Assembly (NCBI RefSeq): GCF_026151205.1
Contig: NC_087073.1
Span: forward strand, 21,850,270-21,914,269
Length of the DNA stretch: 64,000 nucleotides
Direction of reading: 5' to 3'
Origin: Bolinopsis microptera
Taxonomy: Eukaryota > Ctenophora > Tentaculata > Lobata > Bolinopsidae
Part shown: positions 1-47,675 of the stretch, one piece after another
Layout of the letters: each line of letters begins with the position of its first letter
Position numbering within the stretch: the stretch's first letter is position 1
Notes under the pieces: model-generated
Seen by the model: the letters and a program-made list of their open reading frames with translations, nothing else
What the model was told of the DNA's origin: nothing
Database searches by the model: none
Program-made: the position numbers and the translations under genes

Positions 1-626
1 TGCAGTTCAGGTACTTTGTTTACTGAAACCCTACTTGTACAGTAGCGGGGGTCCTATTATTGCAGTTCAGGTACTTTGTTTACTGAAACCCTACTTGTAC
101 AGTAGCGGGGGTCCTATTATTGCAGTTCAGGTACTTTGTTTACTGAAACCCTACTTGTACAGTAGTGGGGGTCCTATTATTGCAGTTCAGGTACTTTGTT
201 TACTGAAACCCTACTTGTACAGTAGTGGGGGTCCTATTATTGCAGTTCAGGTACTTTGTTTACTGAAACCCAACTTGTACAGTAGCAGGGGTCCTATTAT
301 TGCAGTTCAGGTACTTTGTTTACTGAAACCCTACTTGTACAGTAGCGGGGGTCCTATTATTGCAGTTCAGGTACTTTGTTTACTGAAACCCTACTTGTAC
401 AGTAGTGGGGGTCCTATTATTGCAGTTCAGGTACTTTGTTTACTGAAACCCTACTTGTACAGTAGCGGGGGTCCTATTATTGCAGTTCAGGTACTTTGTT
501 TACTGAAACCCTACTTGTACAGTAGCGGGGGTCCTATTATTGCAGTTCAGGTACTTTGTTTACTTAACTGAAACCCTACTTGTACAGTATAGTCATATAG
601 TGGGGGTCCTATTATTGCAGTTCAGG
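1..626 (+). repeat. 60-bp array copying the GLB1 exon end plus donor site
   Basis: About nine clean 60-bp units (1-560), then a decayed, partly deleted copy to about 626. Reading through gives KPYLYSSGGPIIAVQ followed by intron-like gtactttgtttactg. KP-LY--GGPIIAVQ is the GLB1 sequence that directly precedes VENEYGS, so each unit holds 45 nt of exon end, a donor GT and 15 nt of intron. The array continues left of the window; the true exon body is there. Confidence 0.88.
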
Positions 627-2451: not shown

Positions 2452-5400
2452 TTCTTGAATGAGTACAGGAGTAACAGGAATATTGCAGGTTGGGAATGAG
2501 TACGGGAGTAACAGAAATATTGCAGGTTGAGAATGAGTACGGGAGTAACAGAAATATTGCAGGTTGAGAATGAGTAGGGGAGTAACAGGAATATTGCAGG
2601 TTGAGAATGAGTAGGGGAGTAACAGGAATATTGCAGGTTGGGAATGAGTACAGGAGTAACAGGAATATTGCAGGTTGAGAATGAGTAGGGGAGTAACAGG
2701 AATATTGCAGGTTGAGAATGAGTACGGGAGTAACAGAAATATTGCAGGCTGAGAATGAGTACGGGAGTAACAGGAATATTGCAGGTTGAGAATGAGTACG
2801 GGAGTAACAGAAATATTGCAGGCTGAGAATGAGTAGGGGAGTAACAGGAATATTGCAGGTTGAGAATGAGTACGGGAGTAACATGAATATTGCAGGTTGA
2901 GAATGAGTTCGGGAGTAACAGGAATATTGCAGGTTGAGAATGAGTACGGGAGTAACAGGAATATTGCAGGTTGAGAATGAGTTCGGGAGTAACAGGAATA
3001 TTGCAGGTTGAGAATGAGTACGGGAGTAACAGGAATATTGCAGGTTGAGAATGAGTTCGGGAGTAACAGGAATATTGCAGGTTGAGAATGAGTAGGGGAG
3101 TAACAGGAATATTGCAGGTTGAGAATGAGAACAGGAGTAACAGAAATATTGCAGGTTGAGAATGAGTACGGGAGTAACAGAAATATTGCAGGTTGAGAAT
3201 GAGTAGGGGAGTAACAGAAATATTGCAGGTTGAGAATGAGTACGGGAGTAACAGGAATATTGTAGGTTGAGAATGAGTAGGGGAGTAACAGGAATATTGC
3301 AGGTTGAGAATGAGTACGGGAGTAACAGGAATATTGCAGGTTGAGAATGAGTAGGGGAGTAACAGGAATATTGCAGGTTGAGAATGAGTACGGGAGTAAC
3401 AGGAATATTGCAGGTTGAGAATGAGTAGGGGAGTAACAGGAATATTGCAGGTTGAGAATGGGTAGGGGAGTAACAGGAATATTGCAGGTTGGGAATGAGT
3501 ACAGGAGTAACAGGAATATTGCAGGTTGAGAATGAGTAGGGGAGTAACAGGAATATTGCAGGTTGAGAATGAGTACGGGAGTAACAGGAATATTGCAGGT
3601 TGAGAATGAGTACGGGAGTAACAGGAATATTGCAGGTTGAGAATGAGTAGGGGAGTAACAGGAATATTGCAGGTTGAGAATGAGTACGGGAGTAACAGAA
3701 TATTGCAGGTTGAGAATGAGTACGGGGAGTAACAAGAATATTGCAGGTTGAGAATAAGTAGGGGAGTAACAGGAATATTGCAGGTTGAGAATGAGTAGGG
3801 GAGTAACAGGAATATTGCAGGTTGAGAATGAGTACAGGAGTAACAGGAATATTGCAGGTTGAGAATGAGTAGGGGAGTAACAGGAATATTGCAGGTTGAG
3901 AATGAGTACGGGAGTAACAGGAATATTGCAGGTTGAGAATGAGTACGGGAGTAACAGGAATATTGCAGGTTGAGAATGAGTAGGGGAGTAACAGGAATAT
4001 TGCAGGTTGAGAATGAGTACGGGAGTAACAGGAATATTGCAGGTTGAGAATGAGTACGGGAGTAACAAGAATATTGCAGGTTGAGAATGAGTACAGGAGT
4101 AACAGGAATATTGCAGGTTGAGAATGAGTACGCGAGTAACAGGAATATTGCAGGTTGAGAATGAGTACGGGAGTAACAGAAATATTGCAGGTTGAGAATG
4201 AGTACGGGAGTAACAGGAATATTGCAGGTTGAGAATGAGTACGGGAGTAACAGGAATATTGCAGGTTGAGAATGAGTACGGGAGTAACAGGAATATTGTA
4301 GGTTGAGAATGAGTACAGGAGTAACAGGAATATTGCAGGTTGAGAATGAGTAGGGGAGTAACAGGAATATTGCAGGTTGGGAATGAGTACGAAGTAACAG
4401 GAATATTGCAGGTTGGGAATGAGTACAGGAGTAACCGGAATATTGCAGGTTGAGAATGAGTACGGGAGTAACAAGAATATTGTAGGTTGAGAATGAGTAC
4501 AGGAGTAACAAGAATATTGCAGGTTGAGAATGAGTTCGGGAGTAACAAGAATATTGCAGGTTGAGAATGAGTACGGGAGTAACAGGAATATTGCAGGTTG
4601 AGAATGAGTACGGGAGTAACAGGAATATTGCAGGTTGAGAATGAGTAGGGGAGTAACAGGAATATTGCAGGTTGAGAATGAGTACGGGAGTAACAGGAAT
4701 ATTGCAGGTTGAGAATGAGTACGGGAGTAACAGGAATATTGCAGGTTGAGAATGAGTACGGGAGTAACAGGAATATTGCAGGTTGAGAATGAGTACGGGA
4801 GTAACAGGAATATTGCAGGTTGAGAATGAGTACGGAGTAACAGAATATTGCAGGTTGAGAATGAGTACGGGAGTAACAGGAATATTGCAGGTTGAGAATG
4901 AGTACAGGAGTAACAAGAATATTGCAGGTTGAGAATGAGTACGGGAGTAACAAGAATATTGCAGGTTGAGAATGAGTACGGGAGTAACAGGAATATTGCA
5001 GGTTGAGAATGAGTACGGGAGTAACAGGAATATTGCAGGTTGAGAATGAGTACGGGAGTAACAGGAATATTGCAGGTTGAGAATGAGTACGGGAGTAACA
5101 GGAATATTGCAGGTTGAGAATGAGTACGGGAGTAACAGGAATATTGCAGGTTGAGAATGAGTACGGGAGTAACAGGAATATTGCAGGTTGAGAATGAGTA
5201 CGGGAGTAACAGGAATATTGCAGGTTGAGAATGAGTACGGGAGTAACAAGAATATTGCAGGTTGAGAATGAGTACGGGAGTAACAGGAATATTGCAGGTT
5301 GAGAATGAGTACGGGAGTAACAGGAATATTGCAGGTTGAGAATGAGTACGGGGAGTAACAGGAATATTGCAGGTTGAGAATGAGTACGGGAGTAACAGGA

Positions 5401-8400
5401 ATATTGCAGGTTGAGTAACAGGAATATTGTAGGTTGAGAATGAGTACGGGAGTAACAGGAATATTGCAGGTTGAGAATGAGTACGGGAGTAACAGGAATA
5501 TTGCAGGTTGAGAATGAGTACGGGAGTAACAGGAATATTGCAGGTTGAGAATGAGTACGCGAGTAACAAGAATATTGCAGGTTGAGAATGAGTACGGGAG
5601 TAACAGGAATATTGCAGGTTGAGAATGAGTACGGGAGTAACAGGAATATTGCAGGTTGAGAATGAGTACGGGAGTAACAGGAATATTGCAGGTTGAGAAT
5701 GAGTACGGGAGTAACAGGAATATTGCAGGTTGAGAATGAGTACGGGAGTAACAGGAATATTGCAGGTTGAGAATGAGTACGGGAGTAACAGGAATATTGC
5801 AGGTTGAGAATGAGTACGGGAGTAACAGGAATATTGCAGGTTGAGAATGAGTACGGGAGTAACAGGAATATTGCAGGTTGAGAATGAGTACGGGAGTAAC
5901 AGGAATATTGCAGGTTGAGAATGAGTACGGGAGTAACAGGAATATTGCAGGTTGAGAATGAGTACGGGAGTAACAGGAATATTGCAGGTTGAGAATGAGT
6001 ACGGGAGTAACAGGAATATTGCAGGTTGAGAATGAGTACGGGAGTAACAGGAATATTGCAGGTTGAGAATGAGTACGGGAGTAACAGGAATATTGCAGGT
6101 TGAGAATGAGTACGGGAGTAACAGGAATATTGCAGGTTGAGAATGAGTACGGGAGTAACAGGAATATTGCAGGTTGAGAATGAGTACGGGAGTAACAGGA
6201 ATATTGCAGGTTGAGAATGAGTACGGGAGTAACAGGAATATTGCAGGTTGAGAATGAGTACGGGAGTAACAAGAATATTGCAGGTTGAGAATGAGTACGG
6301 GAGTAACAGGAATATTGCAGGTTGAGAATGAGTACGGGAGTAACAGGAATATTGCAGGTTGAGAATGAGTACGGGAGTAACAGGAATATTGCAGGTTGAG
6401 AATGAGTACGGGAGTAACAGGAATATTGCAGGTTGAGAATGAGTACGGGAGTAACAGGAATATTGCAGGTTGAGAATGAGTACGGGAGTAACAGGAATAT
6501 TGCAGGTTGAGAATGAGTACGGGAGTAACAGGAATATTGCAGGTTGAGAATGAGTACGGGAGTAACAGGAATATTGCAGGTTGAGAATGAGTACGGGAGT
6601 AACAGGAATATTGCAGGTTGAGAATGAGTACGGGAGTAACAGGAATATTGCAGGTTGAGAATGAGTACGGGAGTAACAGGAATATTGCAGGTTGAGAATG
6701 AGTACGGGAGTAACAGGAATATTGCAGGTTGAGAATGAGTACGGGAGTAACAGGAATATTGCAGGTTGAGAATGAGTACGGGAGTAACAGGAATATTGCA
6801 GGTTGAGAATGAGTACGGGAGTAACAGGAATATTGCAGGTTGAGAATGAGTACGGGAGTAACAGGAATATTGCAGGTTGAGAATGAGTACGGAGTAACAG
6901 GAATATTGCAGGTTGAGAATGAGTACGGGAGTAACAGGAATATTGCAGGTTGAGAATGAGTACAGGAGTAACAGGAATATTGCAGGTTGAGAATGAGTAG
7001 GGAGTAACAGGAATATTGCAGGTTGAGAATGAGTACGGGAGTAACAGGAATATTGCAGGTTGAGAATGAGTACGGGAGTAACAGGAATATTGCAGGTTGA
7101 GAATGAGTACGGGAGTAACAGGAATATTGCAGGTTGAGAATGAGTACGGGAGTAACAGGAATATTGCAGGTTGAGAATGAGTACGGGAGTAACAGGAATA
7201 TTGCAGGTTGAGAATGAGTACGGGAGTAACAGGAATATTGCAGGTTGAGAATGAGTACGGGAGTAACAGGAATATTGCAGGTTGAGAATGAGTACGGGAG
7301 TAACAAGAATATTGCAGGTTGAGAATGAGTACGGGAGTAACAGGAATATTGCAGGTTGAGAATGAGTACGGGAGTAACAGGAATATTGCAGGTTGAGAAT
7401 GAGTACGGGAGTAACAGGAATATTGCAGGTTGAGAATGAGTACGGGAGTAACAGGAATATTGCAGGTTGAGAATGAGTAGGGGAGTAACAGGAATATTGC
7501 AGGTTGAGAATGAGTACGGGAGTAACAGGAATATTGCAGGTTGAGAATGAGTACGGGAGTAACAGGAATATTGCAGGTTGAGAATGAGTACGGGAGTAAC
7601 AGGAATATTGCAGGTTGAGAATGAGTACGGGAGTAACAAGAATATTGCAGGTTGAGAATGAGTACGGGAGTAACAGGAATATTGCAGGTTGAGAATGAGT
7701 ACGGGAGTAACAGGAATATTGCAGGTTGAGAATGAGTACGGGAGTAACAGGAATATTGCAGGTTGAGAATGAGTACGGGAGTAACAGGAATATTGCAGGT
7801 TGAGAATGAGTACGGGAGTAACAGGAATATTGCAGGTTGAGAATGAGTACGGGAGTAACAGGAATATTGCAGGTTGAGAATGAGTACGGGAGTAACAGGA
7901 ATATTGCAGGTTGAGAATGAGTACGGGAGTAACAGGAATATTGCAGGTTGAGAATGAGTACGGGAGTAACAGGAATATTGCAGGTTGAGAATGAGTACGG
8001 GAGTAACAGGAATATTGCAGGTTGAGAATGAGTACGGGAGTAACAGGAATATTGCAGGTTGAGAATGAGTACGGGAGTAACAGGAATATTGCAGGTTGAG
8101 AATGAGTACGGGAGTAACAGGAATATTGCAGGTTGAGAATGAGTACGGGAGTAACAGGAATATTGCAGGTTGAGAATGAGTACGGGAGTAACAGGAATAT
8201 TGCAGGTTGAGAATGAGTACGGGAGTAACAGGAATATTGCAGGTTGAGAATGAGTACGGGAGTAACAGGAATATTGCAGGTTGAGAATGAGTACGGGAGT
8301 AACAGGAATATTGCAGGTTGAGAATGAGTACGGGAGTAACAGGAATATTGCAGGTTGAGAATGAGTACGGGAGTAACAGGAATATTGCAGGTTGAGAATG

Positions 8401-10348
8401 AGTACGGGAGTAACAGGAATATTGCAGGTTGAGAATGAGTACGGGAGTAACAGGAATATTGCAGGTTGAGAATGAGTTCGGGAGTAACAGGAATATTGCA
8501 GGTTGAGAATGAGTACGGGAGTAACAGGAATATTGCAGGTTGAGAATGAGTACGGGAGTAACAGGAATATTGCAGGTTGAGAATGAGTACGGGAGTAACA
8601 GGAATATTGCAGGTTGAGAATGAGTACGGGAGTAACAGGAATATTGCAGGTTGAGAATGAGTACGGGAGTAACAGGAATATTGCAGGTTGAGAATGAGTA
8701 CGGGAGTAACAGGAATATTGCAGGTTGAGAATGAGTACGGGAGTAACAGGAATATTGCAGGTTGAGAATGAGTACGGGAGTAACAGGAATATTGCAGGTT
8801 GAGAATGAGTACGGGAGTAACAGGAATATTGCAGGTTGAGAATGAGTACGGGAGTAACAGGAATATTGCAGGTTGAGAATGAGTACGGGAGTAACAGAAT
8901 ATTGCAGGTTGAGAATGAGTACGGGAGTAACAGGAATATTGCAGGTTGAGAATGAGTACGGGAGTAACAGGAATATTGCAGGTTGAGAATGAGTACGGGA
9001 GTAACAGGAATATTGCAGGTTGAGAATGAGTACGGGAGTAACAGGAATATTGCAGGTTGAGAATGAGTACGGGAGTAACAGGAATATTGCAGGTTGAGAA
9101 TGAGTACGGGAGTAACAGGAATATTGCAGGTTGAGAATGAGTACGGGAGTAACAGGAATATTGCAGGTTGAGAATGAGTACGGGAGTAACAGGAATATTG
9201 CAGGTTGAGAATGAGTACGGGAGTAACAGGAATATTGCAGGTTGAGAATGAGTACGGGAGTAACAGGAATATTGCAGGTTGAGAATGAGTACGGGAGTAA
9301 CAGGAATATTGCAGGTTGAGAATGAGTACGGGAGTAACAGGAATATTGCAGGTTGAGAATGAGTACGGGAGTAACAGAATATTGCAGGTTGAGAATGAGT
9401 ACGGGAGTAACAGGAATATTGCAGGTTGAGAATGAGTACGGGAGTAACAGGAATATTGCAGGTTGAGAATGAGTACGGGAGTAACAAGAATATTGCAGGT
9501 TGAGAATGAGTACGGGAGTAACAGGAATATTGCAGGTTGAGAATGAGTACGGGAGTAACAGGAATATTGCAGGTTGAGAATGAGTACGGGAGTAACAGGA
9601 ATATTGCAGGTTGAGAATGAGTACGGGAGTAACAAGAATATTGCAGGTTGAGAATGAGTACGGGAGTAACAGGAATATTGCAGGTTGAGAATGAGTACGG
9701 GAGTAACAGGAATATTGCAGGTTGAGAATGAGTACGGGAGTAACATGAATATTGCAGGTTGAGAATGAGTACGGGAGTAACAGGAATATTGCAGGTTGAG
9801 AATGAGTACGGGAGTAACAGGAATATTGCAGGTTGAGAATGAGTTCGGGAGTAACAAGAATATTGCAGGTTGAGAATGAGTACGGGAGTAACAGAATATT
9901 GCAGGTTGAGAATGAGTACGGGAGTAACAGGAATATTGCAGGTTGAGAATGAGTACGGGAGTAACAGGAATATTGCAGGTTGAGAATGAGTACGGGAGTA
10001 ACAGAAATATTGCAGGTTGAGAATGAGTTCGGGAGTAACAGGAATATTGCAGGTTGAGAATGAGTACGGGAGTAACAGGAATATTGTAGGTTGAGAATGA
10101 TTACGCGAGTAACAGGAATATTGCAGGCTGAGAATGAGTACAGGAGTAACAGGAATATTGTAGGTTGAGAATGATTACGCGAGTAACAGGAATATTGCAG
10201 GTTGAGAATGAGTTCGGGAGTAACAGGAATATTGCAGGTTGAGAATGAGTAGGGGAGTAACAGAAATATTGCAGGTTGAGAATGATTACGGGAGTAACAG
10301 GAATATTGAAGGTTGAGAATGAGTACGCGAGTAACAGGAATATTGCAG
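2452..10348 (+). repeat. 37-bp array (about 213 units) copying the GLB1 acceptor and exon A start
   Basis: The unit is 12 nt of intron end (ggaatattgcag) plus 25 nt matching the first bases of exon A (encoding VENEYGSN) with one synonymous difference. It runs without interruption into exon A. Left-hand units are more varied (agtagggg, agttcggg, cagaaat variants), the centre is highly homogeneous, and the last 600 bp diverge again. Because 37 is not a multiple of 3 and the reverse strand lacks stops in the unit, long minus-strand open frames result; these are not genes. Confidence 0.95.
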
Positions 10349-10476
10349 GTTGAAAATGAGTACGGGAGTAACAAACCCTGCGATGCAGGTCACTTTGACT
10401 ACATGACCCAGTTGAGAGACATCTACAGAGAACACCTGGGTGAAGAGATAGTCCTGCTCACCGTGGACGGAGATAG
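10349..10476 (+). CDS. GLB1: GLB1 exon A: VENEYGS acid/base motif
   Basis: Begins after attgcag with GTTGAAAATGAGTACGGG (VENEYG) and ends GGAGATAG before gtatac (phase 2). The Glu of NEYG (codon 10358-10360) matches the GH35 acid/base catalyst. The first 25 nt differ by one synonymous base from the repeat unit of the 213-copy array directly upstream, so the true acceptor is simply the last of many near-identical sites. Confidence 0.9.
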
Positions 10477-13400
10477 GTATACATTATACATTATACATTA
10501 TACATTATACATTATACATTATACATTATACATTATACACGATACACTATACATAATAGGTTCAGGTACATTGTATTATACTGGTTTATGATGTCCACTA
10601 ATTTCAGCTACAAGCTGGCTCAGTGTGGTAATATAGAGGGGCTTTACTCCACACTTAACTTCGGGTCAGGAGGTAATATTACCAGCAAGTTCCTGGTACA
10701 GAGGAAACAGGAACCCAGAGGTCCTTTTGTGTGCAGCGCCTTCTTCAGCGGCTGGCTCGATCATTGGGGGCACAAGTTTGCTAAGGTAATTACCTTCATT
10801 GTTGTTAATAGTAGCAATATTACTAATAGTCTTTTAACACGCACGCAGTTTTTGTATATTATTAGTATATTTAATATGTATATTATTAGTATATTTAATA
10901 TATTGTAAGTATATAATATAGTATATATATATTGTAGTTTAACCGTCTCTCCTGCAGACAGGAGCAGAACACCTCGCACAGGGGTTACAGAACCTACTGG
11001 AGTTTAACGGGAAAACAGCCAGTGTCAGCATGTACATGTTCCACGGGGGCACCAACTTCGCTTACATGCAGGTTACCAAGGTTACTTATAGGTTACTATG
11101 GTTACTTATAGGTTACCAAGGTTACATACAAGAGTTACAAGAGTTGCAAGAGTTGCAAGATTTACAAGAGTTACAATAGTTACAAGAGTTACAAAAGTTA
11201 TATTTCTAGTCGATGTGCACTGATCCGTAGTGTTGTGATACTCCCGCGGTCTGCGTATTTACTGGCGCTATTTAGCGTGAGGGCCCGTTAACACTAGGTT
11301 TAGGTAACACTAGGTTTAGGTAACACTAGGTTTAGGTAACACTAGGTTTAGGTAACACTAGGTTTAGGTAACACTAGGTTTAGGTAACACTAGGTTTAGG
11401 TAACACTAGGTTTAGGTAACACTAGGTTTAGGTAACACTAGGTTTAGGTAACACTAGGTTTAGGTAACACTAGGTTTAGGTAACACTAGGTTTAGGTAAC
11501 ACTAGGTTTAGGTAACACTAGGTTTAGGTAACACTAGGTTTAGGTAACACTAGGTTTAGGTAACACTAGGTTTAGGTAACACTAGGTTTAGGTAACACTA
11601 GGTTTAGGTAACACTAGGTTTAGGTAACACTAGGTTTAGGTAACACTAGGTTTAGGTAACACTAGGTTTAGGTAACACTAGGTTTAGGTAACACTAGGTT
11701 TAGGTAACACTAGCATTCTTTGCAGAAGTTGGAGTTCAAGCCACGATAAAAATCTAATTTCTGACAATATTAGTTGGATAAGTGTTGATACATTCTCTGA
11801 ACCGAGATTTTAAACTAAAGGCTATGGAGATCAATGGGTAGCGGCCTGGTGTGTTATCCATAATGTGATCCACTTGTTCTAATAGCATGTTAGGTGTGTA
11901 CTTATCCCAACATCTCCTCTGAGAACCCCTCTACAAACATCGGCGTAGGGGAAGACTACACCATACCTATGTAGACATTCTGGACCTTTACTGATAGTTG
12001 AAATTCGACATATGACGTCATCTAGCGTCATCTAGCGTCATCTAGCGTGAAATATCGCCAGATGATGATAGATGACGCTAGATGACGCTAGATGACGCTA
12101 GATGACGCCAATTAGCGACATTGTCGCTAAGTGCATGGCACCTTTCGAATGTCGCTATCTAGCGCTATCTAGCGCTATCTAGCGCTATCTAGCGCTACAT
12201 GACGCTATATGACGCTAGATGACGCTAGATGACGCTATATGACGCTAGATGACGCTAAGCACGCAGCACTGACGCCAGGCGACAGATAGCGCTATTTTCA
12301 TAAAAATTCTAGGGACGACATCTAGCGTCATCTAGCGTCATATGTTGCCGCGACATCTGACGCTATCTGACGCCATCTAGCGACATCTGACGACATCTGA
12401 CGACATCTGACGCGACGACATCTGACGCAGGCGACATCAAGCGCTGGATAGCGGGATAAGTCAGTTTACGACAGTTCACGCTATCTAGCGCTATATAGCG
12501 TCATGTAGCGCTAGATAGCGCTAGATAGCGCTAGATAGCGCTAGATAGCGACATTCGAAAGGTGCCGTGCACTTAGCGACAATGTCGCTAATTGGCGTCA
12601 TCTAGCGTCATCTAGCGTCATCTAGCGTCATCTATCATCATCTGGCGATATTTCACGCTAGATGACGCTAGATGACGCTAGATGACGTCATATGTCGAAT
12701 TTCAACTATCAGTAAAGGTCCGACATTCTGCGGAGGAACACGGGGTTTGACGACAGCAAAGAGACAAACAACCTCAGGATAGAGAGAAAAATCATTTTTG
12801 CTCGGAAATCGAAGCCGCCCTAAGTCGTGTCAGCTGACGAAATATACATATATTGCAAAATACAATTTTAATATATTGCTAGCACTGGTTAGCTGACGAA
12901 TCATATTGCAAAGTCCTATTTAGACATTTTGCGCTACTTAGCGCTAACTTACGCTAACTTGCGCTAACTGACAACAGCGCTAGCTATCGAATATCACAAA
13001 CTCTTCAAACTATCGGGTGCGAGAATTTCGCACAAATAGCACATAGCGCTATTTAGATTATCGCAAATAAAACAAATAATAAAATGAGAGTTTTTCAGAA
13101 GCAAGCTGCTGCTTTATGTGCCGTACAGAATCTTCAGTTACCATAGTTGTGCTTGCCAGGACTCCGTTCAAGTCTCCGTTAATAGTTAGTTTAGTGTGCA
13201 TAGAAAATCAGCAGGTTAATTTAAACTGTTCAAAGAGCGTGTTGCTTCTTAAGGCTACAGCTTTAGAACAAAAAGAGAAAATCATTATATCATTCTAGGA
13301 CATTTTTAAAGAACACGTGTGCCAAGTTTTAAACTGTTAAAAAAGAGTTTTTAAACACAGTTCTATTTGAAGGATAATTTTCAGTAAATTAGGAAGCCTA

Positions 13401-16400
13401 TACTTAATTAAGAAAAGGAAACTAACTGTAAGATTTAACTCTGCAAATAAAGATGCAGGGCGCAGGCGGAGGAAGTTTAAATATGAAGTAATGTGGCATA
13501 AATTATACATGAGCATAAAAACAAGTAAACAATAATATACAAGGCTAGTATAGGTCACTCCCGGTGTTGGGATGGTCTGAGGTGCTTATCTCCTTTTCAT
13601 TAACCCTAAGCCACTCTGTGTTGAGGCACTATACTGGTATACTAGCTGTAGGGGGGGTTAGCCCTACGAGCCAGGGAGTCTGTATCACCAGCCGAAGCTG
13701 TACCAAATCACAGCTTTGTAACTGGCCGACTTGAATCCGACCGGATTTCTGCCTGGGAGGCGATCGATAGTTTTACCACTACACCACCCGGCCGACATCT
13801 ATAGCCTAATTAATCTTATGGTTCAGGGAAGAAAAGGAGACTAGAAAGTAGAATAACGCCACCACTACAGACACCCCCCTCTCCTAATTAATGTATTGGT
13901 TCAGGGAGGAAGAGGAGATTGGAATAACGCCACCACTACAGACTACCCCCCCTCCTAATTAATGTATTGGTTCAGGGAGGAAGAGGAGACTGGAATAACG
14001 CCACCACTACAGACTACCCCCCTCCTAATTAATGTAATGGTTCAGGGAGGAAGAGGAGACTGGAATAACGCCATCACTACAGAACCCCCCCTCCTAATTA
14101 ATGTAATGGTTCAGGGAGGAAGAGGAGACTGGAATAACGCCACCACTACAGACTACCCCCCCCCCCCCTCCTAATTAATGTAATGGTTCAGGGAGGAAGA
14201 GGAGACTGGAATAACGCCACCACTACAGAACCCCCCCTCCTGATTAATGTAATGGTTCAGGGAGGAAGAGGAGACTGGAATAACGCCACCACTACAGACT
14301 ACCCCCCCCCCCTCCTAATTAATGTAATGGTTCAGGGAGGAAGAGGAGACTGGAATAACGCCATCACTACAGAACCCCCCCTCATAATTAATGTAATAGT
14401 CCAGGGAGGAAGAGGAGATTGGAATAACGCCACCACTACAGACTACCCCCCCTCCTAATTAATGTAATGGTTCAGGGAGGAAGAGGAGACTGGAATAACG
14501 CCACCACTACAGACTACCCCCCCCCCCCCCTCCTAATTAATGTAATGGTTCAGGGAGGAAGAGGAGACTGGAATAACGCCACCACTACAGACTACCCCCG
14601 ACTGTGGGGTAAGATGACTAGTTATGACTACGACGCACCCCTCTCAGAAGCCGGGGACACTACTTGGAAATATCAGCTCCTGCGCCAAGTCATCGGGTAT
14701 AATCACTTCCTCTTAAGTCTTAACATTATCACAATTTAAATGAGGAGATTTACGTTATTTAAGAGAAAGTAAGAACAAGTTAGTAAGTTTAAGTAAGTAA
14801 GAACATATGATTATTAAGTGTCCTGCTCCTAGCAGGATGTTTATTAGAAAACACAATTACAGAAACTGAAAAATACAAACTTTTATTATATAAAGTTACA
14901 TCACAAGAATTTTTACATAGGAAGTCATCAGAAAAAAAGACCGTAGAACAATGAAAAGTTCTGAAATACACTTCACTTAGATTCCTTACATAAATAAAAA
15001 CAGTTTATAGAGGAATGCTGGGCCGTTATTCCCCCGGAAATTGTTAACTTGCCAGCAAATAATCATGAGACAAACATTAATCTTATTATAATTTGTGCAA
15101 GGCAAGGAATTTGTGTAACCATAGTTGGACAAATTCTTTGAAATGTGTATCAGAGGAATCCCGAAAAGCAGATCCTGCAGATCCTATATCAGGTCACCTA
15201 TATCAGGTCACCTATATACCTGTATATAATAGATAGGTACCTATTACCGATAGATAATACAATTACGAAGTCTAGCTTTGTGTTCAATACCTGTTTAGGT
15301 CTACAACAGCCGCGTAACGTTGCCTGTTGCCGAAAAAGCGCCCCCCTGTTGGCGCCCCCTCCCCATTTGGCGCAGATTTGCTAGTACCTCAGTTAAGTTT
15401 TCCAAAATTGTCCCACATTCAAACCCCCCACCCCCCGCACAGCGGGGTCAGCAGGCCCCTCGTTACGCCACTAGTCTACAAACCCTTGTGATAACATGAC
15501 ATAATCGGGTAGAGAATTTCCTGCTTCTAGTCATATCATTACTATTACATGTATTAGATCATTGCTTATAATTCATAAGTCCTCAACGAAATCCCTACGA
15601 TTTCTTTTGAACAAGAAATGCGGCCGCTACCTGGCTCACCGATTAGGTAAGTAAATCCGGCCGCTACCTGGCTCGCGGCCAAGGTAGGTAAATCCGGCCG
15701 CTACCTGGCTCACCAAGGTAAGTAAATCTGGCTGCTACCTGGCTCACCAAGGTAGGTAAATCCGGCCGCTACCTGGCTCACCAAGGTAAGTAAATCCGGC
15801 CGCTACCTGGCTCACCAAGGTAATTGTAAATCCGGCCGCTACCTTGCTCGCGGCCAAGGTAATTGTAAATCTGGCCGCTACCTGGCTCGCGGCCAAGGTA
15901 AGTAAATCTGGCTGCTACCTGGCTCGCGGCCAAGGTAAGTAAATCTGGCTGCTACCTGGCTCGCGGCCAAGGTAATTGTAAATCCGGCCGCTACCTGGCT
16001 CGCGGCCAAGGTAATTGTAAATCCTGCCGCTACCTGGCTCGCGGCCAAGGTAAGTAAATCCGGCTGCTACCTGGCTCGCGGCCAAGGTAAGTAAATCTTG
16101 CTGCTACCTGGCTCACCAAGGTAAGTAAATCCTGCCGCTACCTTGCTCACCAAGGTAATTGTAAATCCTGCCGCTACCTTGCTCACCAAGGTAATTGTAA
16201 ATCTGGCTGCTACCTGGCTCACCAAGGTAAGTAAATCCTGCCGCTACCTTGCTCACCAAGGTAATTGTAAATCTTGCTGCTACCTGGCTCACCAAGGTAA
16301 GTAAATCCTGCCGCTACCTTGCTCACCAAGGTAATTGTAAATCCTGCCGCTACCTTGCTCACCAAGGTAATTGTAAATCTGGCTGCTACCTGGCTCACCA

Positions 16401-24747: not shown

Positions 24748-27700
24748 CACCCTGATTTTTTTGTGAAACTTGGTTTCGAGATAGCAGTTGACCAACAAAC
24801 TAGGACCAGTGACCAAACTTTTGAGGGGGTCCCTGACCCCAACCGCCAAACGGTGCCTGCGGGGCAGCCACGCTGGTCCAAATTAGGCCCAATTTAGCCA
24901 AATACCGTGAACATGCCCAAAATCCAGAGTTTAGGTGCTCTACTTGTAGCTAGTGGTCCCCTGAACTCGTATATGAATTTCCATCAAGATTGGACAAAAA
25001 ATGACTGAGTTATGAGCAAAAAACCATATGACCATATTTGGGCATACGCATCAAATTTGATCGATTTTGGCCCATATATTAGTCAAATATCAATATTTTT
25101 GAACGAAACCAACTTTATATGGAAGGTAAGCATATACTATATACTACACATTCTCTATGATTATCAGCTCAGTATCTACCTAACTGTGGGTTCTGTGTTC
25201 AAATAATCGCAAAAAAGGAACAAAATTGCCCATATCTCAGTTCGCGATATTTGCAAAACTGATTTCGCTCAAAACAATAGAACTCAATAGGGTTTCAATA
25301 TTTTTACATGAAATTTTCAGAATCAACGTACAATCGCATTTCAACCTTAAGTTTTGGGACAGAATTTTGAGTTAGGCCTTTAAAAAAATTTGGCGGCCAA
25401 ATTCTGAATTTCGCATTGCGAATTTTGGAATTTGGCCGCCCCCCTTAAGTAAAAGTCTATATAATAGAATATAGAAAACAAAATAGCCTACTACTACTAT
25501 GAAAGCTTAATAACAAACTGTGAAAGAGTGGTTAACGTAAATAAAACTATTCCGACACAACCAAAGAAATAGCTCTCGCAAAAGGTAACATGCATATTAT
25601 TGCATAAGGAATTATAAGGAGGCCTAGCACACTATAATCTACATGAAGTCATAAAATGTAAAACTATGCCAGTGTCTGAGGATACACATTACACGCTGAC
25701 TGACTATTATTATTAATAAATAACTTAAGATATCTATGCAAGATCTTCCGTTAAAAAGTCTGGGTAATCAGTTTATCAATTAATAATTTAATTTTAACAT
25801 CATTAATAAGTTCAGTAACCACTGAGGAGGATTTGCATATCCTATACAGTTCGTCTACAAATATTCCATACGAATGTTTTACAGGTACGTTGGAGCGTAA
25901 AAGTACCGACTTTCAAACTGAAATCACGTCATTTGTCATTATATAACAAACGCTCATAATTACAGGATTATTATTATATTTATTATTATCAAACTTTACA
26001 CAAATCCAAAGTAGTTACTAAGAACATCCTAAAGACCTCCACTTAAAAGACTTGTAGAACTAAAAACTTACTATAAAGTGGAATTACATTGCAAAGAGCA
26101 TACAAGTTCTTGTTGCTGATGATGCGGGGATAGGTCATGTTGATGATACGTCTTAGATGTTTGCGTTGACACACATCAACTTTATTGATAATGTTCTGTG
26201 GAGCTGCCCAGCTGTTACAGTTGTACAATAAAACAGGGGTAACAAATGCTTCATACAGCTTGATTTTTACAGGAAGAGAAATGCGGGATTTCTCTGCCCA
26301 TACCTTGCTGTATTTCTCAAAGGCAACGTAAGCAAGGATGCATCGGCGAGAGATATCAGCCTTACTGCAGAGCTTGGATCCAAGAGAAATAGTGTTGCGC
26401 CAGGGCTCTCTGTTCTTCACGGGTTCACCCTTGGCGTCTACCTCGTCCTTATCTGCAATGTAGAAGTGGACATGTTCTGTTTTGTCCTCGTTCACAAACA
26501 GGTTCCATTCTTCAAGGATCTCCTTACATATGGGCAGCATTTCTTTAAGAGTTTCCTCATCCTCATCTGCAAAATTGCCATCGTCGGCGTATTCCCATTC
26601 AATAGGCATGAGGGTCTCGGGGTTGAACGGTGGGTTAGGCCGAATGGTAATCACTACTGCACGGAAGTGATACATAGCTCCAGCAAAGTACAGTGTGAAG
26701 AATGCACCAGATGCAGCATCACCTTGAAACGAACCCTCGGATGTTTCAAACTCTAAGGAAATGGTGTTGTTGATTTTTATTCTCAATTTGGTGTTGGAGA
26801 GCAAGTATCTCGCCAAACGAATGTCATCCTCACAACAATCAGCACCAGCCAAAAGTTCCAGGATAACTGATCTCTTTATGGTATCGAAGGCCGAGCTCAT
26901 GTCGATTCCCATCTTGTGGAACTCCCATCTCTTCTCTTTCACAACAGAATTAGGATATAATTAATGCTCATAATTACAGGATTAAGATATAATTAATGCT
27001 CATAATTACAGGATTAGGATATAATTAACGCTCATAATTACAGGATTAGGATATAATTAATGCTCATAATTACAGCTACTAACTACTTCTCAGTAACTAC
27101 AGCAAGACACGCCCGATACCTGACAACACTACTAAACATCACGTTGGACCGGTACAATTGGAGGAGGTTATTAACATATTTGACATGGTGAGACTGCTGC
27201 AGTACGACCCTAACTGCGTGATTCAAAGCGAGTTACCTCTTCCAATGGAACAGATGGGACAGGTACTGGTTACTTTTAGTTACTTTTAGTTACTTTTAGT
27301 TACTTTTAGTTACTTTTAGTTACTTTTAGTTACTTTTAGTTACTTTTAGTTACTTTTAGTTACTTTTAGTTACTTTTAGTTACTTTTAGTTACTTTTAGT
27401 TACTTTTGGTTACTTTTAGTTACTTTTAGTTACTTTTAGTTACTTTTAAGCTTCAACTCGGAAACATCGGTTCCTACCATACCCATATTTGATATTTGTC
27501 TCCGATTATTAACTGGCAAAAATCTGTACTATAAATATTATAAATTTTAGCATAAAGTGCTCTAAAAGTGTATTGGTCAATAATAATAATGAAAAGGTTA
27601 ATTTTATTCAATTTCAAAGCAGCGAATTTTACGATTTGTCTGTTTGCTGCACTGCAACCTTAAACTGTTGAAAACCATGTAATTTTGATTAAGAGTTTTA

Positions 27701-30700
27701 TTAGGGTGTTACCATTATGAAATAATGTAACAACACGTTTCAGAATCACGGATTTGTTGTCTACCAAACTATGATACCGGAGGAAATACCTCTACCAGCA
27801 GCTATTGACATAGACCTTTACGGAGACAGGTACATACCAAGAGGCAGGCAATGGGAACTCGCCAGCCCACGGCAACATTTAATATATTGACAAAACCCCG
27901 TAACATAACAAGAGATGAGATCTGGCAATATTACACCTCAGATAAATGAAAAGTAATGATAAAGTATTATATTTAGTTATAACTAAACACTTGCAAATAT
28001 AAAATAGAATATAAAATATAATATAAAATATAATATAAAATATAATATAATCTACTATGACCTATAAGAACAGCGGAGAATTAAAACGACTAAAAACGCC
28101 ACGTGTCTTAAATGTTACAGCAGCGAACAAAATTGACCCTACTCGTTAATAGTAATATAAATAAATAATTGTAAATACATTTTTTACCAAGTACTGCAGT
28201 CAGCTTTTCAAGTCAATTTTACATCATTTTATTTGCAATTTGAGGACATAGTAAAGTTAAATAATTTTTTAAGCATTCCGAAAATCTATCGGAAATTATT
28301 TCCAGCTTGCCCCTTCATTAAAATATTGCAATTGAGGTTAATGCTTTTTTAGAATAATTTGGTTTAAAAAACGATTTTTGTAATTTAGTATTCTCTGGTG
28401 TTGGGGCATCCTCAGAAGCAACATATTATACAATATAATTGCAGCCAAATTTTGCGAAATGTACGGCAAATTTTATTCAATTAGATTGGTATTTCTGTGA
28501 TGGAAAGTTACTCATTGGGTTAGTTTAATAGTTCTTTAACGAAGGAGTAATTATTTTAAGGCCCGTTTTAAATTTTAGATCTTTAGTTAACTGGATGATA
28601 AAAGGGACCTTCTGGTTTTGCTGACGTCAGCAAAACCATAATATTTACACGGTAACCATGGCAACTGTTGCTGACGTCAGCAAAAATACTTGAATTTTAG
28701 CCAACTTTTAAATCAATTTGGTTAGCAATACTCCTCGTGTAAAATCATCTCCGAAGAAATAACAGTCTGGTTACATTCTGTCTAAAACTTTGACTCGCCA
28801 GCGATTGAATAATCGAGCACTGATGGTGATACTGCACTAGTGTATTTAGTTTAATAATTATGTAAGGAAGGGGCTAAATCAGCTACTGAGCACTGCGTAC
28901 TACTACTATATTATATAATATAAATATAATAATATTATTTAATATATATACAGGGTTTACGTAATGACAGAAGACGGTGAAGTACAGATCAGTTCCCGAA
29001 ACCGCCCTTACAAAACCTTCTCATTTAGTCGCAGGAAGCTTTACATCCTGGTTGAAGACAACGGTACGTAGTGTAATAACTCAACTTTAATATTACTCAA
29101 CTTTATGTCATGTTAGTTGTGTCAGTGAACACTGTAGCACATTTACATAACCGAAAGAGTCATTTCCCCAGACAATATGCGACTAAGAAACACTAAACAG
29201 TCTATAGTAGATTACGTCCAGACACCAGTAAAACGCATAGAAACATAACAATAACAAGATCATGTGCCTGTCTTTACTTATTTTCAGGGACAAAAGGAAA
29301 TCGCGGCATGTACGGAATCGCGATTTTTCCCATTATTTGCGACAAATTTTATGTATAGTTTAATGTATAGCCTGTTAAAATTCGCGGTATCGCGATTTTT
29401 GGCCAAAACAATCGCGAAACCCTTTTGTCCCTGCTTATTTTAGCTAAAAATGGTAACAGTTGCCATGGTTACCGTGTAAATATTAACAGTTGCCACGGTT
29501 ACCGTGTAAATATTAACAGTTGCCATGGTTACCGTATAAATATTAACAGTTGCCATGGTTACCGTGTAAATATTAACAGTTGCCATGGTTACTGTGTAAA
29601 TATTAACAGTTGCCATGGTTACCGTGTAAATATCAACAGTTGCCATGGTTACCGTATAAATATTAACAGTTGCCATGGTTACCGTATAAATATTAACAGT
29701 TGCCATGGTTACCGTGTAAATATTAACAGTTGCCATGGTTACCGTGTAAATATTAACAGTTGCCATGGTTACCGTGTAAATATTAACAGTTGCCATGGTT
29801 ACCGTGTAAATATTAACAGTTGCCATGGTTACCGTGTAAATATTAACAGTTGCCATGGTTACCGTGTAAATATTAACAGTTGCCATGGTTACCGTGTAAA
29901 TATTAACAGTTGCCATGGTTACCGTGTAAATATTAACACTTGCCATGGTTACCGTGTAAATATTAACACTTGCCATGGTTACCGTGTAAATATTAACAGT
30001 TGCCATGGTTACCGTGTAAATATTTACAGTTGCCATGGTTACCGTGTAAATATTAACAGTTGCCATGGTTACCGTGTAAATATTAACAGTTGCCATGGTT
30101 ACCGTGTAAATATTTACAGTTGCCATGGTTACAGTGTAAATATTAACAGTTGCCATGGTTACCGTGTAAATATTTACAGTTGCCATGGTTACCGTGTAAA
30201 TATTAACAGTTGCTATGGTTACCGTGTAAATATTAACAGTTGCCATGGTTACCGTGTAAATATTAACAGTTGCCATGGTTACCGTGTAAATATTAACAGT
30301 TGCCATGGTTACCGTGTAAATATTTACAGTTGCCATGGTTACCGTGTAAATATTTACAGTTGCCATGGTTACCGTGTAAATATTAACAGTTGCCATGGTT
30401 ACCGTGTAAATATTAACAGTTGCCATGGTTACCGTGTAAATATTAACAGTTGCCATGGTTACCGTGTAAATATTAACAGTTGCAATGATTACCGTGTAAA
30501 TATTAACAGTTGCCATGGTTACCGTGTAAATATTAACAGCTGCCATGGTTACCGTGTAAATATTAACAGCTGCCATGGTTACCGTGTAAATATTTACAGT
30601 TGCCATGGTTACCGTGTAAATATTAACAGTTGCCATGGTTACCGTGTAAATATTAACAGTTGCCATGGTTACCGTGTAAATATTAACAGTTGCCATGGTT

Positions 30701-33700
30701 ACCGTGTAAATATTGACAGTTGCCATGGTTACCGTGTATGGTTACCGTGTAAATATTAACAGTTGCCATGGTTACCGTGTAAATATTAACAGATGCCATG
30801 ATTACCGTGTAAATATTAACAGTTGCCATGGTTACCGTGTAAATATTAACAGTTGCCATGGTTACCGTGTAAATATTAACAGTTGCCATGGTTACCGTGT
30901 AAATATTAACACTTGCCATGGTTACCGTGTAAATATTAACAGTTGCCATGGTTACCGTGTAAATATTAACACTTGCCATGGTTACCGTGTAAATATTAAC
31001 ACTTGCCATTGTTACCGTGTAAATATTAACACTTGCCATGGTTACCGTGTAAATATTAACAGTTGCAATGATTACGTGTAAATATTAACACTTGCCATGG
31101 TTACCGTGTAAATATTAACAGTTGCCATGGTTACCGTGTAAATATTAACAGTTGCCATGGTTACCGTGTAAATATTAACAGTTGCCATGGGGTTACAGTT
31201 GTAAATTATGCTTCTAACAGTGTGCCATGGGTTTACCGTGTAAATTTTTACTGTTGCAGATCTGGTTTCCGTGCTAAATATTAACAGTTGCCATGGGTTC
31301 CGTATAATTGTAACAGTTGACATGGTGACCGTGTAAATATTAAACATCTTGCCATGGTTTTACCGGGTAAAATATTAACACGTGCCATGGTTACCGTGTA
31401 ATTACTGTTGATAACTGTTGCCATGGTTACAGTGGTATATAGTTACTGTTGCATGGTTACCGGGGTAAAGAGGTTATCAGGTGCCTTGGTTTACCGTGTT
31501 GGTAATTATGAACACTTGCCATGGTTACCGGGTATATATAGTTTATCAGTGGCCATGGGGACGGGCCCCCGTCGGATTAGAAATCTAACTCTTCAACTTA
31601 ATTATAAACAATTAAACAACCATAAAAAAGAAAGAATAAAACCCCCCCCCCCCCCCCCCCCCCCCACAAAATAAATATAAACCCAAACACTAACGCCCCA
31701 AAAATATTGAACAGTGGCCTAGGGTTCCCGTGATTATTTATTAACAGTTGCCATGGTAACGGGTTAATCTTTATCTGTTGACATGGTTACCGTGGTAAAT
31801 GTTCTATCAGTTGCCATTGGTTACCGTGTAAATAGAATCTGCTGCCATGGTTACCGTGTTATTTATTAACTAGTTGCCAAGTGGTTACCGTTGTAAATAT
31901 TAACAGCTGCCATGGTTAACGTGTAAATTATTATCACGTGGCCATGGGTTACCGGGGATCAATATATATCTAAATATTTAACACTTGCCATGGTTACGGG
32001 TAAATATTAACAGTTACCATGGTTACTGTCCTGTTGATAAAAAGATGATACAGTTGCCATGGTTACAGTGGTAATTAAGTGAACAGTTGCCATGGTGTAC
32101 CGTGGAAATATTAACAGTGCCATGGTTACCGTGATTAAGATTATCAGATGGACATGGGTGACCGGGTAATATGATTGGACTGGGCCATGGTGTCCGCGAG
32201 GTTACCGGTATAATCAACTATTAATTTTAAACTCCACAAAAAACCCCAAAATCCATTCAAATTTAAAACCATTCACAAAAATCCAACTAAATAACATAAT
32301 ATTATCTGTTGCCTTGGTTACACGTGTAAAATTTAACTAGTTGCCATGGGTTTCCGTGGAAATATATCAGGGGAAGCCATGGGTACCGGGGTTCTATTGT
32401 CAGGTGGCCTTGGTGACAGTGTAATATTAGTTAAACTCGTGGCCATGGGGTATTCCGGGCGATTGTTAGTTAACAGTTGCCCTTGGTGTACCGGGGAATT
32501 TATAGGTTTCAGGCTGCCATGGACTAACCGTGTCATTAGTATACACTGGCCCTGGGTGTACCGGGTAAATATGTTACTGGCGGCCCAGGGTTACCGGGCT
32601 TTATATGTACAAGGGGCCTTGGGTGACCGTGTTTATTGTTCCTGGTGCCAGGTGTTTACGTGACAATATTTACATGTTGCCAAGGGTTTGTCCGGGTTTT
32701 GTAGATACACAATACCTTGCAATGCTGACGTGTGTAATAGCTATAAGTTGCCATGTCTTGACCTGCGTTTAATTAGTATTCTGTTAGCCACGTTTACAGT
32801 GTAATAATTGTTATGTGTGGCAAGGGGTATCCGGGGTCACAAGTTGTTCTGGTGACTGGGTTAACGTTGTAAATTTATGAACACATGCAAGGCGTGACGT
32901 TTTGTGTCAAACTTTGAATCTGGTGCCGGGTACCGGTGGTTATAAAAGATTTTCCTGGGGCCTGGGCGGACCGGGGATATAATACAGTAGGGGACTGGGG
33001 GTACAGGGGTTTGCATGTTGATCAAAAGATCTAATAAAAAAAATAATTAACCTCCTCCATCCCCATTGGATAAGGTGGCCTTGGTTACCGTGTAAATATT
33101 AAACTTGACATGTTGACACGGGGAATGTGTTTCATGTATGGACTGGCCGTACCGTGTAATTTTTAACTGGTGCCTTGGTTACAGTGGAAATATTTATCAG
33201 TGGCCAGCGGGCCTCCGTGGTTTTATATGATTCTCCTGCAATGGGTTACAGGGTTTATGTGTTCCTGTGGCCTGGGGGTTGATCAAGGGGAAAGTGGTTA
33301 TGGGGACCATGGTTAACGTGTGAAATTTGTACATCGTTGCCTTGCGTTACCGTGTAAACATTAACAAGGTTGCCCTGGTTACCCGTGTAAAAGATTCAAC
33401 AGTTTGCCATGGATACCGTGTAAATATAAACAGTTGCCATTGTTACCGTGAAATATTAACAGTTGCCATTGTTACCGTGTAAAAAATTAACAGTTGCCAT
33501 GGTTACCGTGTAAATATTAACACTTTTGCCATGGCTTACCGTGTTAAAATATTACAGTTGCCATGGTTACCGTTGTAAATATTAACAGTTGCCATGGTTA
33601 CCGTTGGTAAATAATTGCCATGGTTACCGTGTAAATATTAACAGTTGCCATGGTTACCGTGTAAATATTAACAGTTGCCATGGTTACCGTGTAAATATTA

Positions 33701-36700
33701 ACAGTTGCCATGGTTACCGTGTAAATATTAACAGTTGCCATGGTTACCGTGTAAATATTAACAGTTGCCATGGTTACCGTGTAAATATTAACAGTTGCCA
33801 TGGTTACCGTGTAAATATTAACAGTTGCCATGGTTACCGTGTAAATATTAACAGTTGCCATGGTTACCGTGTAAATATTAACAGTTGCCATTGAAGGCCA
33901 TGGTTACCGTGTAAATATTAACAGTTGCCATGGTTACCGTGTAAATATTAACAGTTGCCATGGTTACCGTGTAAATATTAACACTTGCCATGGTTACCGT
34001 GTAAATATTAACAGTTGCCATGGTTACCGTGTAAATATTAACAGTTGCCATGGTTACCGTGTAAATATTAACAGTTGCCATGGTTACCGTGTAAATATTA
34101 ACAGTTGCCATGGTTACCGTGTAAATATTAACAGTTGCCATGGTTACCGTGTAAATATTAACAGTTGCCATGGTTACCGTGTAAATATTAACAGTTGCCA
34201 TGGTTACCGTGTAAATATTAACAGTTGCCATGGTTACCGTGTAAATATTAACAGTTGCCATGGTTACCGTGTAAATATTAACAGTTGCCATGGTTACCGT
34301 GTAAATATTAACAGTTGCCATGGTTACCGTGTAAATATTAACAGTTGCCATGGTTACCGTGTAAATATTAACAGTTGCCATGGTTACCGTGTAAATATTA
34401 ACAGTTGCCATGGTTACCGTGTAAATATTAACAGTTGCCATGGTTACCGTGTAAATATTAACAGTTGCCATGGTTACCGTGTAAATATTAACAGTTGCCA
34501 TGGTTACCGTGTAAATATTAACAGTTGCCATGGTTACCGTGTAAATATTAACAGTTGCCATGGTTACCGTGTAAATATTAACAGTTGCCATGGTTACCGT
34601 GTAAATATTAACACTTGCCATGGTTACCGTGTAAATATTAACAGTTGCCATGCTTACCGTGTAAATATTAACACTTGCCATGGTTACCGTGTAAATATTA
34701 ACAGTTGCCATGCTTACCGTGTAAATATTAACACTTGCCATGGTTACCGTGTAAATATTAACAGTTGCCATGGTTACCGTGTAAATATTAACAGTTGCCA
34801 TGGTTACCGTGTAAACATTAACAGTTGCCATGGTTACCGTGTAAATATTAACACTTGCCATGGTTACCGTGTAAACATTAACAGTTGCCATGGTTACCGT
34901 GTAAATATTAACACTTGCCATGGTTACCGTGTAAATATTAACAGTTGCCATGGTTACCGTGTAAACATTAACAGTTGCCATGGTTACCGTGTAAATATTA
35001 ACACTTGCCATGGTTACCGTGTAAATATTAACAGTTGCCATGGTTACCGTGTAAATATTAACAGTTGCCATGGTTACCGTGTAAATATTAACAGTTGCCA
35101 TGGTTACCGTGTAAATATTAACAGTTGCTATGGTTACCGTGTAAATATTAACAGTTGCCATGGTTACCGTGTAAATATTAACAGTTGCCATGGTTACCGT
35201 GTAAACATTAACACTTGCCATGGTTACCGTGTAAATATTAACAGTTGCCATGGTTACCGTGTAAATATTAACAGTTGCCATGGTTACCGTGTAAATATTA
35301 ACACTTGCCATGGTTACCGTGTAAATATTAACAGTTGCCATGGTTACCGTGTAAATATTAACAGTTGCCATGGTTACCGTGTAAATATTAACAGTTGCCA
35401 TGGTTACCGTGTAAATATTAACAGTTGCCATGGTTACCGTGTAAATATTAACAGTTGCCATGGTTACTGTGTAAATATTAACAGTTGCCATGGTTACCGT
35501 GTAAATATTAACAGTTGCCATGGTTACTGTGTAAATATTAACAGTTGCCATGGTTACTGTGTAAATATTAACAGTTGCCATGGTTACTGTGTAAATATTA
35601 ACAGTTGCCATGGTTACCGTGTAAATATTAACACTTGCCATGGTTACTGTGTAAATATTAACACTTGCCATGGTTTCCGTGTAAATATTAACAGTTGCCA
35701 TGGTTACTGTGTAAATATTAACAGTTGCCATGGTTACCGTGTAAATATTAACAGTTGCCATGGTTACTGTGTAAATATTAACAGTTGCCATGGTTACCGT
35801 GTAAATATTAACAGTTGCCATGGTTACCGTGTAAATATTAACAGTTGCCATGGTTACTGTGTAAATATTAACAGTTGCCATGGTTACCGTGTAAATATTA
35901 ACAGTTGCCATGGTTACTGTGTAAATATTAACAGTTGCCATGGTTACCGTGTAAATATTAACACTTGCCATGGTTACCGTGTAAATATTAACAGTTGCCA
36001 TGGTTACTGTGTAAATATTAACAGTTGCCATGGTTACCGTGTAAATATTAACAGTTGCCATGGTTACCGTGTAAATATTAACAGTTGCCATGGTTACTGT
36101 GTAAATATTAACAGTTGCCATGGTTACCGTGTAAATATTAACAGTTGCCATGATTACAGCGTAAATATTAACACTTGCCATGATTACAGCGTAAATATTA
36201 ACAGTTGCCATGGTTACCGTGTAAATATTAACACTTGCCATGGTTACCGTGTAAATATTAACAGTTGCCATGGTTACCGTGTAAATATTAACAGTTGCCA
36301 TGGTTACCGTGTAAATATTAACACTTGCCATGGTTACCGTGTAAATATTAACAGTTGCCATGGTTACCGTGTAAATATTAACAGTTGCCATGGTTACTGT
36401 GTAAATATTAACACTTGCCATGGTTACCGTGTAAATATTAACAGTTGCCATGATTACAGCGTAAATATTAACAGTTGCCATGATTACAGCGTAAATATTA
36501 ACAGTTGCCATGGTTACCGTGTAAATATTAACAGTTGCCATGGTTACTGTGTAAATATTAACACTTGCCATGGTTACCGTGTAAATATTAACAGTTGCCA
36601 TGGTTACCGTGTAAATATTAACAGTTGCCATGATTACAGCGTAAATATTAACAGTTGCCATGGTTACCGTGTAAATATTAACAGTTGCCATGGTTACTGT

Positions 36701-47309: not shown

Positions 47310-47675
47310 AATACTGCTTACTCAGTGGCTGGCAAACCGCCAACTCTGTTAATCATCCTTGTTTGTACATTTAGTTAAATAATTTTGTTATATTAATAAC
47401 TTATCAATTGTTAATGTTGACACAAATTTCATATTACTGTATTAGCAGAAATTTGAAATATTGTGATTTAGATAGTTTTTGATAAATTGAGCTTTTTTAT
47501 GGACATTTTTAATCATTTTTGGACATTAACATTTACTCTCACTGAATACATAAAAATATTTCTTATCAGTTAGATATTGATTCAAATTAAGATATATTGG
47601 CACTTTCACTGTGTTAAAACACCAAACATTGTAACTAATCTAACCCTGTATTTGACGTTAGTTTAGCAGAGACCA
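47310..47675 (+). other. Intergenic between HEX copies 2 and 3
   Basis: Near-identical to 45085-45450, consistent with tandem duplication of a unit of about 2.2 kb that includes the promoter region. Confidence 0.6.

Follow-up and report, generated by a model that had tools for sequence, protein, structure and literature searches.

Intron 3 of a GH35 beta-galactosidase (GLB1-like) gene of Bolinopsis microptera, a comb jelly reared in the aquarium according to PMC10232365, consists for the most part of its own splice donor, repeated in 96 copies, and its own splice acceptor, repeated in 214. The gene, here called gene A, lies largely within the window analysed, a stretch of 64,000 nucleotides (contig NC_087073.1, positions 21,850,270 to 21,914,269 of the forward strand); coordinates count from its first letter and negative coordinates are positions upstream of it. 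Further arrays of this kind occupy splice junctions in other introns of gene A and in its paralogues B and Z. Judging from the anatomy of the repeats and from the reading frames that they open or close, we think it likely that a gene can bear a tandem duplication that spans a splice junction, that the resulting arrays grow within the intron and that exon definition picks the outermost copy.

Structure of intron 3 of gene A

Intron 3 extends from -5185 to 10348 (15,534 bp), and tandem repeats make up 88% of it. Its two arrays and the exon that follows them are:

1..589, + strand: 60-bp donor-type array, the part within the window; the whole array spans -5234 to 589, holds 96 donors and lies in the same intron as the 37-bp array.
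2452..10373, + strand: 37-bp acceptor-type array with 214 acceptors, intron 3 of the GLB1-like gene A.
10349..10476, + strand: exon VENEYGSN..., the first 25 nt of which are the last array copy; Pfam GH35 match at E 0.013 only.

Tandem Repeats Finder places the 37-bp array at 2457-10373, with 214.5 copies and 96% matches. Counted by junction, it holds 214 acceptors between 2489 and 10349, that is, 213 decoys and then the functional acceptor at 10349, and the 213 units that separate them are predominantly of one length (202 of 37 bp, 7 of 36, 2 of 38, 1 of 35 and 1 of 23). The unit is composed of GGAATATTGCAG, 12 nt of intron end, and GTTGAGAATGAGTACGGGAGTAACA, 25 nt of exon start. The array reaches 25 nt into the functional exon, which differs from the unit at a single site, the second codon being GAA instead of GAG. 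A preliminary description of this DNA had claimed that the unit equals the gene's own acceptor plus the start of its exon and that some 213 decoy acceptors run flush into the functional exon; the junction-anchored count bears out both statements. The decoys are well preserved: AG is intact at all 214 acceptors, and in 173 of the 213 decoys the 20 nt upstream of the junction are the same as at the functional site. That each unit also carries the catalytic motif follows from the position of the unit and requires no function. As an alternative source, a dispersed satellite or introner was considered and rejected, a genome search with the 37-bp unit (up to 3 mismatches) having returned 207 matches on one strand; all 100 of the matches listed lie in the array, which could alone supply the remainder.

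The other end of the intron was located by tblastn of GH35 relatives against a 184-kb stretch around the window. Here the 60-bp array sets out from the intron's own donor, its unit being the exon end LKPYLYSSGGPIIAVQ followed by GTACTTTGTTTACTGAAACC, and GT is present at 94 of the 96 donors, the functional one included. To regard the 37-bp array as the oddity of one intron, as in the preliminary description, is therefore too narrow, given this 96-copy donor array in the same intron and the junction arrays in several introns of three paralogues.

Gene A is apparently an intact ctenophore GH35 (GLB1-like) gene. Three modelled exons lie upstream of the window, and the ten exons between 10349 and 42769, spliced together, give a single 495-codon open frame. 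Two neighbouring exons match PF01301 at 1.1e-07 and 4.3e-08; the exon at 10349..10476 taken alone matches it weakly and below the cut-off (E 0.013), and the last exon taken alone has no Pfam match. The start of the exon at 10349, on which the preliminary description depended, is supported because the two closest relatives found (P0121 and P0122, 52% identical each) read VQVENE ungapped at the intron 3 junction, because the frame remains open over the ten exons, and because an acceptor of paralogue B (by reading of exons) agrees with it in protein position and phase.

The copies differ sharply in what they would encode. Every reading that starts at one of the 213 decoys of the 37-bp array encounters a stop before the exon ends, in 182 cases after 13 codons, and only the last of the 214 acceptors gives an open frame. 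Hence, a productive mRNA requires splicing to the last copy, unless the error is mended by recursive splicing. The preliminary description had offered two outcomes, choice of the last copy or tolerance of many; the need for the last copy is upheld, and tolerance finds no support in this array. On the donor side, the 12 decoys that come first in the 60-bp array keep the frame and meet no stop, and each would add 20 codons, so that some in-frame isoforms are possible there.

Junction arrays in the gene cluster and beyond

Arrays at or near the splice junctions of other introns of gene A and of paralogue B are listed below.

10478..10558, + strand: 7-bp array (TATACAT), beginning 1 nt inside the donor of intron 4; unit without exon.
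11070..11125, + strand: 20-bp donor array of 2.8 copies, with a 2-nt overlap with the donor of intron 6.
13805..14599, + strand: 69-bp acceptor-type array with 11 acceptors, the last of which, at 14554, is functional (exon GRGDWNNATTTDY...).
27269..27448, + strand: 10-bp array, beginning 6 nt inside the donor of intron 8; unit without junction.
29454..37901, + strand: 30-bp array, 95% of intron 10, stopping 9 nt before the acceptor; unit without junction.
38551..42629, + strand: 56-bp acceptor-type array with 73 acceptors, the last of which, at 42592, is functional (exon YWPLAGPQKR...).
50098..50177, + strand: duplication of 40 bp x 2 spanning the exon 1 donor of paralogue B.
50486..64000 (continuing to 73903), + strand: 19-bp array in intron 2 of paralogue B, 1231 copies, stopping 13 nt before the acceptor.

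In five arrays a functional splice site lies within the repeat unit: the modelled exon boundary is the final copy in the 37-, 69- and 56-bp arrays and the initial copy in the 60- and 40-bp arrays. The 20-bp donor array of gene A and the 36-bp donor and 45-bp acceptor arrays of paralogue B (below) likewise have their functional copy at the edge of the exon. AG is intact at all acceptors of the 56-bp array (73/73) and of the 69-bp array (11/11), and a branch-point-like CTAAC lies within 30 nt upstream in 71 of the 73 former. Each of the 72 decoys of the 56-bp array leads to a stop after 12 codons. Of the 10 decoys in the 69-bp array, 9 are closed by a stop as well; the nearest, at 14476, stays open and in frame, which would add 26 codons. 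The 7-, 10-, 19- and 30-bp arrays stop a few bases inside the intron, with the junction outside the unit, and no extra junction copies were found for the 30-bp array of intron 10. At the first modelled exon of gene A, an upstream 41-bp array enters by 12 nt (by reading).

Paralogue B, which starts at 49958, carries a 36-bp donor array and a 45-bp acceptor array besides the 40-bp duplication. Its intron 6 is 98% array, with donor copies at one end and a 35-bp acceptor-like array at the other, in which CCCAG/GTATAAAGGAG resembles the acceptor CACCAG/GTAAAGGAATG (a slash marks the junction), and its intron 8 consists entirely (100%) of array. The 40-bp unit occupies the corresponding place in the upstream paralogue Z with 18 copies (GT in 18/18) versus 2 in B, and the 19-bp array has 46 versus 1231, so that copy numbers changed after gene duplication. 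Only the first five exons of paralogue Z (-40535 to -37425) were recovered; tblastn found no later ones before gene A, and the gene may be truncated. Downstream of the window, a 32-bp array of 3.3 copies (89445-89553) seems to enter a late exon of paralogue B (GTCATGTTCACATG...) and is possibly of the acceptor type; it was left uncounted.

The association with junctions was assessed for the 53 arrays with a period of 7 or more and 2.5 or more copies in the introns of genes Z, A and B, each array being placed at random within its own intron in 20,000 trials. Seven of the 53 overlap a junction versus 1.2 expected, and 17 lie within 15 bp of one versus 4.1 expected; none of the 20,000 placements reached either figure. 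When the 18 arrays of a 10-bp palindromic element are set aside, 17 of 35 lie within 15 bp (4.0 expected). Exon-spanning 20-mers have extra copies in the adjacent intron at 9 of 48 junctions, compared with 0 of 27 for 20-mers from exon centres, and copies of exon-spanning or intron-side 20-mers occur at 17 of the 48.

Beyond the cluster, tandem repeats occupy about 16% on average of thirteen 10-kb stretches, chosen arbitrarily at 12 separate places. One of these, L033, contains a kinesin exon of 23 residues (Pfam E 7.5e-07, 28.9 bits versus a cut-off of 29.3) that ends ATTGAGAG/GTATTTG and is followed by units reading ATTGAGAG/GTAATT.... At a kinase locus, L035, 53 copies of GTTAGTACTTTA begin at the first intron base after an exon ending ...DVWSSGIILYALLV, the kinase identity and the exon end having been read by eye. 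The kinase motif search gave six matches, all with the word GATCT, and is not a fair sample, since others were probably missed. These cases suggest that the junction-array pattern is not confined to one gene.

Several other elements were seen in and around the cluster. The 34-bp array at 15616-24508, with a unit ending CCAAGGTAAGT, was considered as a donor array and not counted, as it lies mid-intron where no coding exon was recognised. Between its blocks at 15616-16852 and 20660-24508 lies, as if inserted, a 1211-codon open reading frame (17082-20714, - strand) with endonuclease, reverse transcriptase and RNase H domains, a retroelement without long terminal repeats, and the same intron holds a reverse-transcriptase fragment (26046-26942, - strand; PF00078, 2.1e-10). 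The palindromic element, which consists of 10-bp CGCTAGATGA and CGTCATCTAG repeats, occurs at 12016-12969, -10795 to -10170 and -8005 to -7447, in two introns of gene A, and looks like a foldback element. Genes A and B are separated by three tandem, similar beta-hexosaminidase-like genes at 43217-49525 (by reading; GH20 shown for the first), and a succession much like it, with a GLB1-like end, a hexosaminidase and a GLB1-like start, seems to recur upstream of the window. Some 45-50 kb upstream, a stretch of poor-looking sequence (locus L009; frameshifted and homopolymer-rich) bears a 56-bp array of at least 11 copies at a GLB1-like exon and is possibly an unpolished or duplicated haplotype. 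Spliced-leader-like matches ending AATAATTTGAG/GTA number 426 genome-wide (202 + 224, up to 3 mismatches) versus 1 for the reversed-pattern control, in agreement with the ctenophore spliced leader, which ends in AATTTGAG as given in PMC8527503. These matches occur in tandem with spacings of about 591 bp and about 858 bp (C3:13511055-13533412 and C5:21341875-21348624), and dispersed copies exist besides.

Splice-site choice and array growth

We hypothesize that the arrays arose as follows. Short tandem duplications would arise across both junctions of intron 3, 3' and 5', and each would be near-neutral, as the copy beside the rest of the exon would still join the exons and the other would become intron. 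Unequal exchange or slippage would then multiply the intronic copies, to 214 acceptors and 96 donors, with purifying selection pinning one copy inside the exon; through repeats at other junctions of gene A and its paralogues, introns would grow from their own splice sites. Under exon definition, the spliceosome would see the exons of 115 nt and 128 nt as units and choose the first donor and the last acceptor, so that the site nearest on the exon side wins at both ends of intron 3, whereas nearest donor-acceptor pairing would keep kilobases of array in the mRNA.

The variants within the 37-bp array bear on how it grew. Variant units are found mainly in the first quarter, where they make up 42 of 53 units; the middle 107 units include 18 of them, and so do the last 53, in which they gather towards the end. 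Eight variant types are common to the first 53 and the last 30 units, and the core is nearly uniform. Because variants cluster at the ends, share types between them and leave a near-uniform core, growth looks like internal amplification and not like stepwise addition at the exon. The earlier proposal that growth began at the exon-intron boundary can thus be kept for the seeding, of which a junction is the simplest origin, and apparently not for the enlargement that followed.

Other origins are conceivable. Introns A12, B2 and B8 are 97-100% array, and intron 6 of gene A, with arrays at both ends, is without counterpart in B (by reading), which would suit a history in which tandem duplication of segments bearing AGGT created the introns and the arrays are what is left of it. 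We regard such intron gain as very unlikely. Intron 3 of A agrees in position and phase with intron 5 of B, and their arrays are unrelated; the arrays are therefore younger than the intron, and junctions have been seeded more than once. The positions of A1 and B2 and of A2 and B4 are also common (by reading of exons), and for intron 3 itself the intron in B at the same position and phase led us to reject this origin. Equally, in a genome rich in minisatellites some might lie on splice sites by chance, or assembly might have inflated the copies; the tandem fraction of the 13 arbitrary stretches and the poor sequence about 45-48 kb upstream of the window lend this some colour. It is nevertheless scarcely credible as an explanation, since the junction excess went beyond all 20,000 random placements, variant units are arranged in order along the 37-bp array and a retroelement reading frame sits between two blocks of the 34-bp array.

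The decoys might instead be used, the arrays serving as a substrate for stochastic or regulated alternative splicing that yields isoforms or tunes expression through nonsense-mediated decay, in the manner attributed to the IFI6 donor minisatellite in the papers that cite it. They are intact and near-identical to the functional site, and those of the 60-bp array (first 12 donors) and acceptor 14476 are in frame and open. The stops met from all decoys of the 37- and 56-bp arrays and from nine of ten in the 69-bp array, together with GH35 relatives that have no insert at the VQ/VENE junction, make this unlikely, and a young, homogenised array would be expected to be intact even without selection. 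Recursive splicing would reconcile many choices with one product: a decoy acceptor would be used first, AG/GT would regenerate a donor and the intron would be removed stepwise. GT does follow AG in the 37-bp (CAG/GTTGAG) and 56-bp (CAG/GTATTGG) units. However, GTTGAG fits the usual donor consensus poorly, and the 69-bp (CAG/GGAGGA) and 45-bp (CAG/TAAGTA) units cannot regenerate a GT donor; recursion was rejected as a general answer on the latter ground and seems most improbable overall.

The proposal of junction-born arrays resolved by exon definition also has evidence to contend with. The gene models come from protein alignment with splice signals read by eye, the outcome of splicing was predicted from genomic sequence, and copy numbers stand as given by the assembly. 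Of the 53 arrays, 46 overlap no junction; random intron 20-mers are repeated in 436 of 680 cases, the introns being mostly tandem repeat; and the junctions of Z and B, as paralogues, cannot count as independent. At the one open 69-bp decoy acceptor and the 12 open decoy donors, the correct choice is not a strict requirement. Outside the cluster the sample is small, partly motif-selected and limited to two cases, with about 299 kb of genome sequence overall, and by eye no junction array was recognised in a 6.8-kb locus with two Aurora-like kinase copies. Finally, neutrality alone leaves the junction excess unexplained, and a mutational bias to exon edges may be needed.

Known junction repeats and significance

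Single junction minisatellites are known. In human IFI6 (6-16/G1P3) splice donor sites form a minisatellite (Turri, Cuin and Porter 1995, as cited in PMC2572611 and PMC4526556), and as in B. microptera the repeat units supply the donors. As that work is cited in PMC4526556, IFI6 has one donor array, of which two downstream units are used as donors; here, by contrast, both acceptor and donor sequences are multiplied, up to 214 and 96 in one intron and in several introns and genes. Intron gain through a tandem duplication that spans an intron-exon boundary is described for a potato RNA-dependent RNA polymerase gene (Ma, Lan and Niu 2016, PMC4974935) in a paper that also cites the AGGT model (Rogers 1989) and 24-bp repeats of fission yeast. 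According to that account, the duplicated unit spans the boundary and inherits branch site and acceptor, and the units described here cross the boundary too; one or a few duplications gave a new intron in potato, whereas tens to hundreds lengthen introns here, at least one of which is older than its arrays. Earthworm metallothionein genes (PMC12783039) likewise have large intronic minisatellite blocks in tandemly duplicated genes that diverge between paralogues; the available part of that paper does not report units made of splice junctions. Recurrent splice-junction minisatellites were not encountered in the open-licence literature that was searched, which is weak evidence of absence, and the scale, recurrence and both-ended form look new.

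It is, in our judgement, an evenly balanced question whether splice junctions are recurrent birthplaces of minisatellites genome-wide, with introns lengthening at both of their ends, independently in paralogues, by serial duplication of the donors and acceptors there, an exon edge under purifying selection serving as a permanent seed and strict exon definition rendering hundreds of perfect decoys harmless. Hundreds of near-perfect splice-site copies in one intron amount to a natural experiment on site choice by the spliceosome: under exon definition the outermost copies win, and under intron definition, which would join the nearest pair, the gene should fail. The arrays also point to a route for intron growth, in which an intron is made from its own splice sites, and to a possible reason why minisatellites persist at exon edges.

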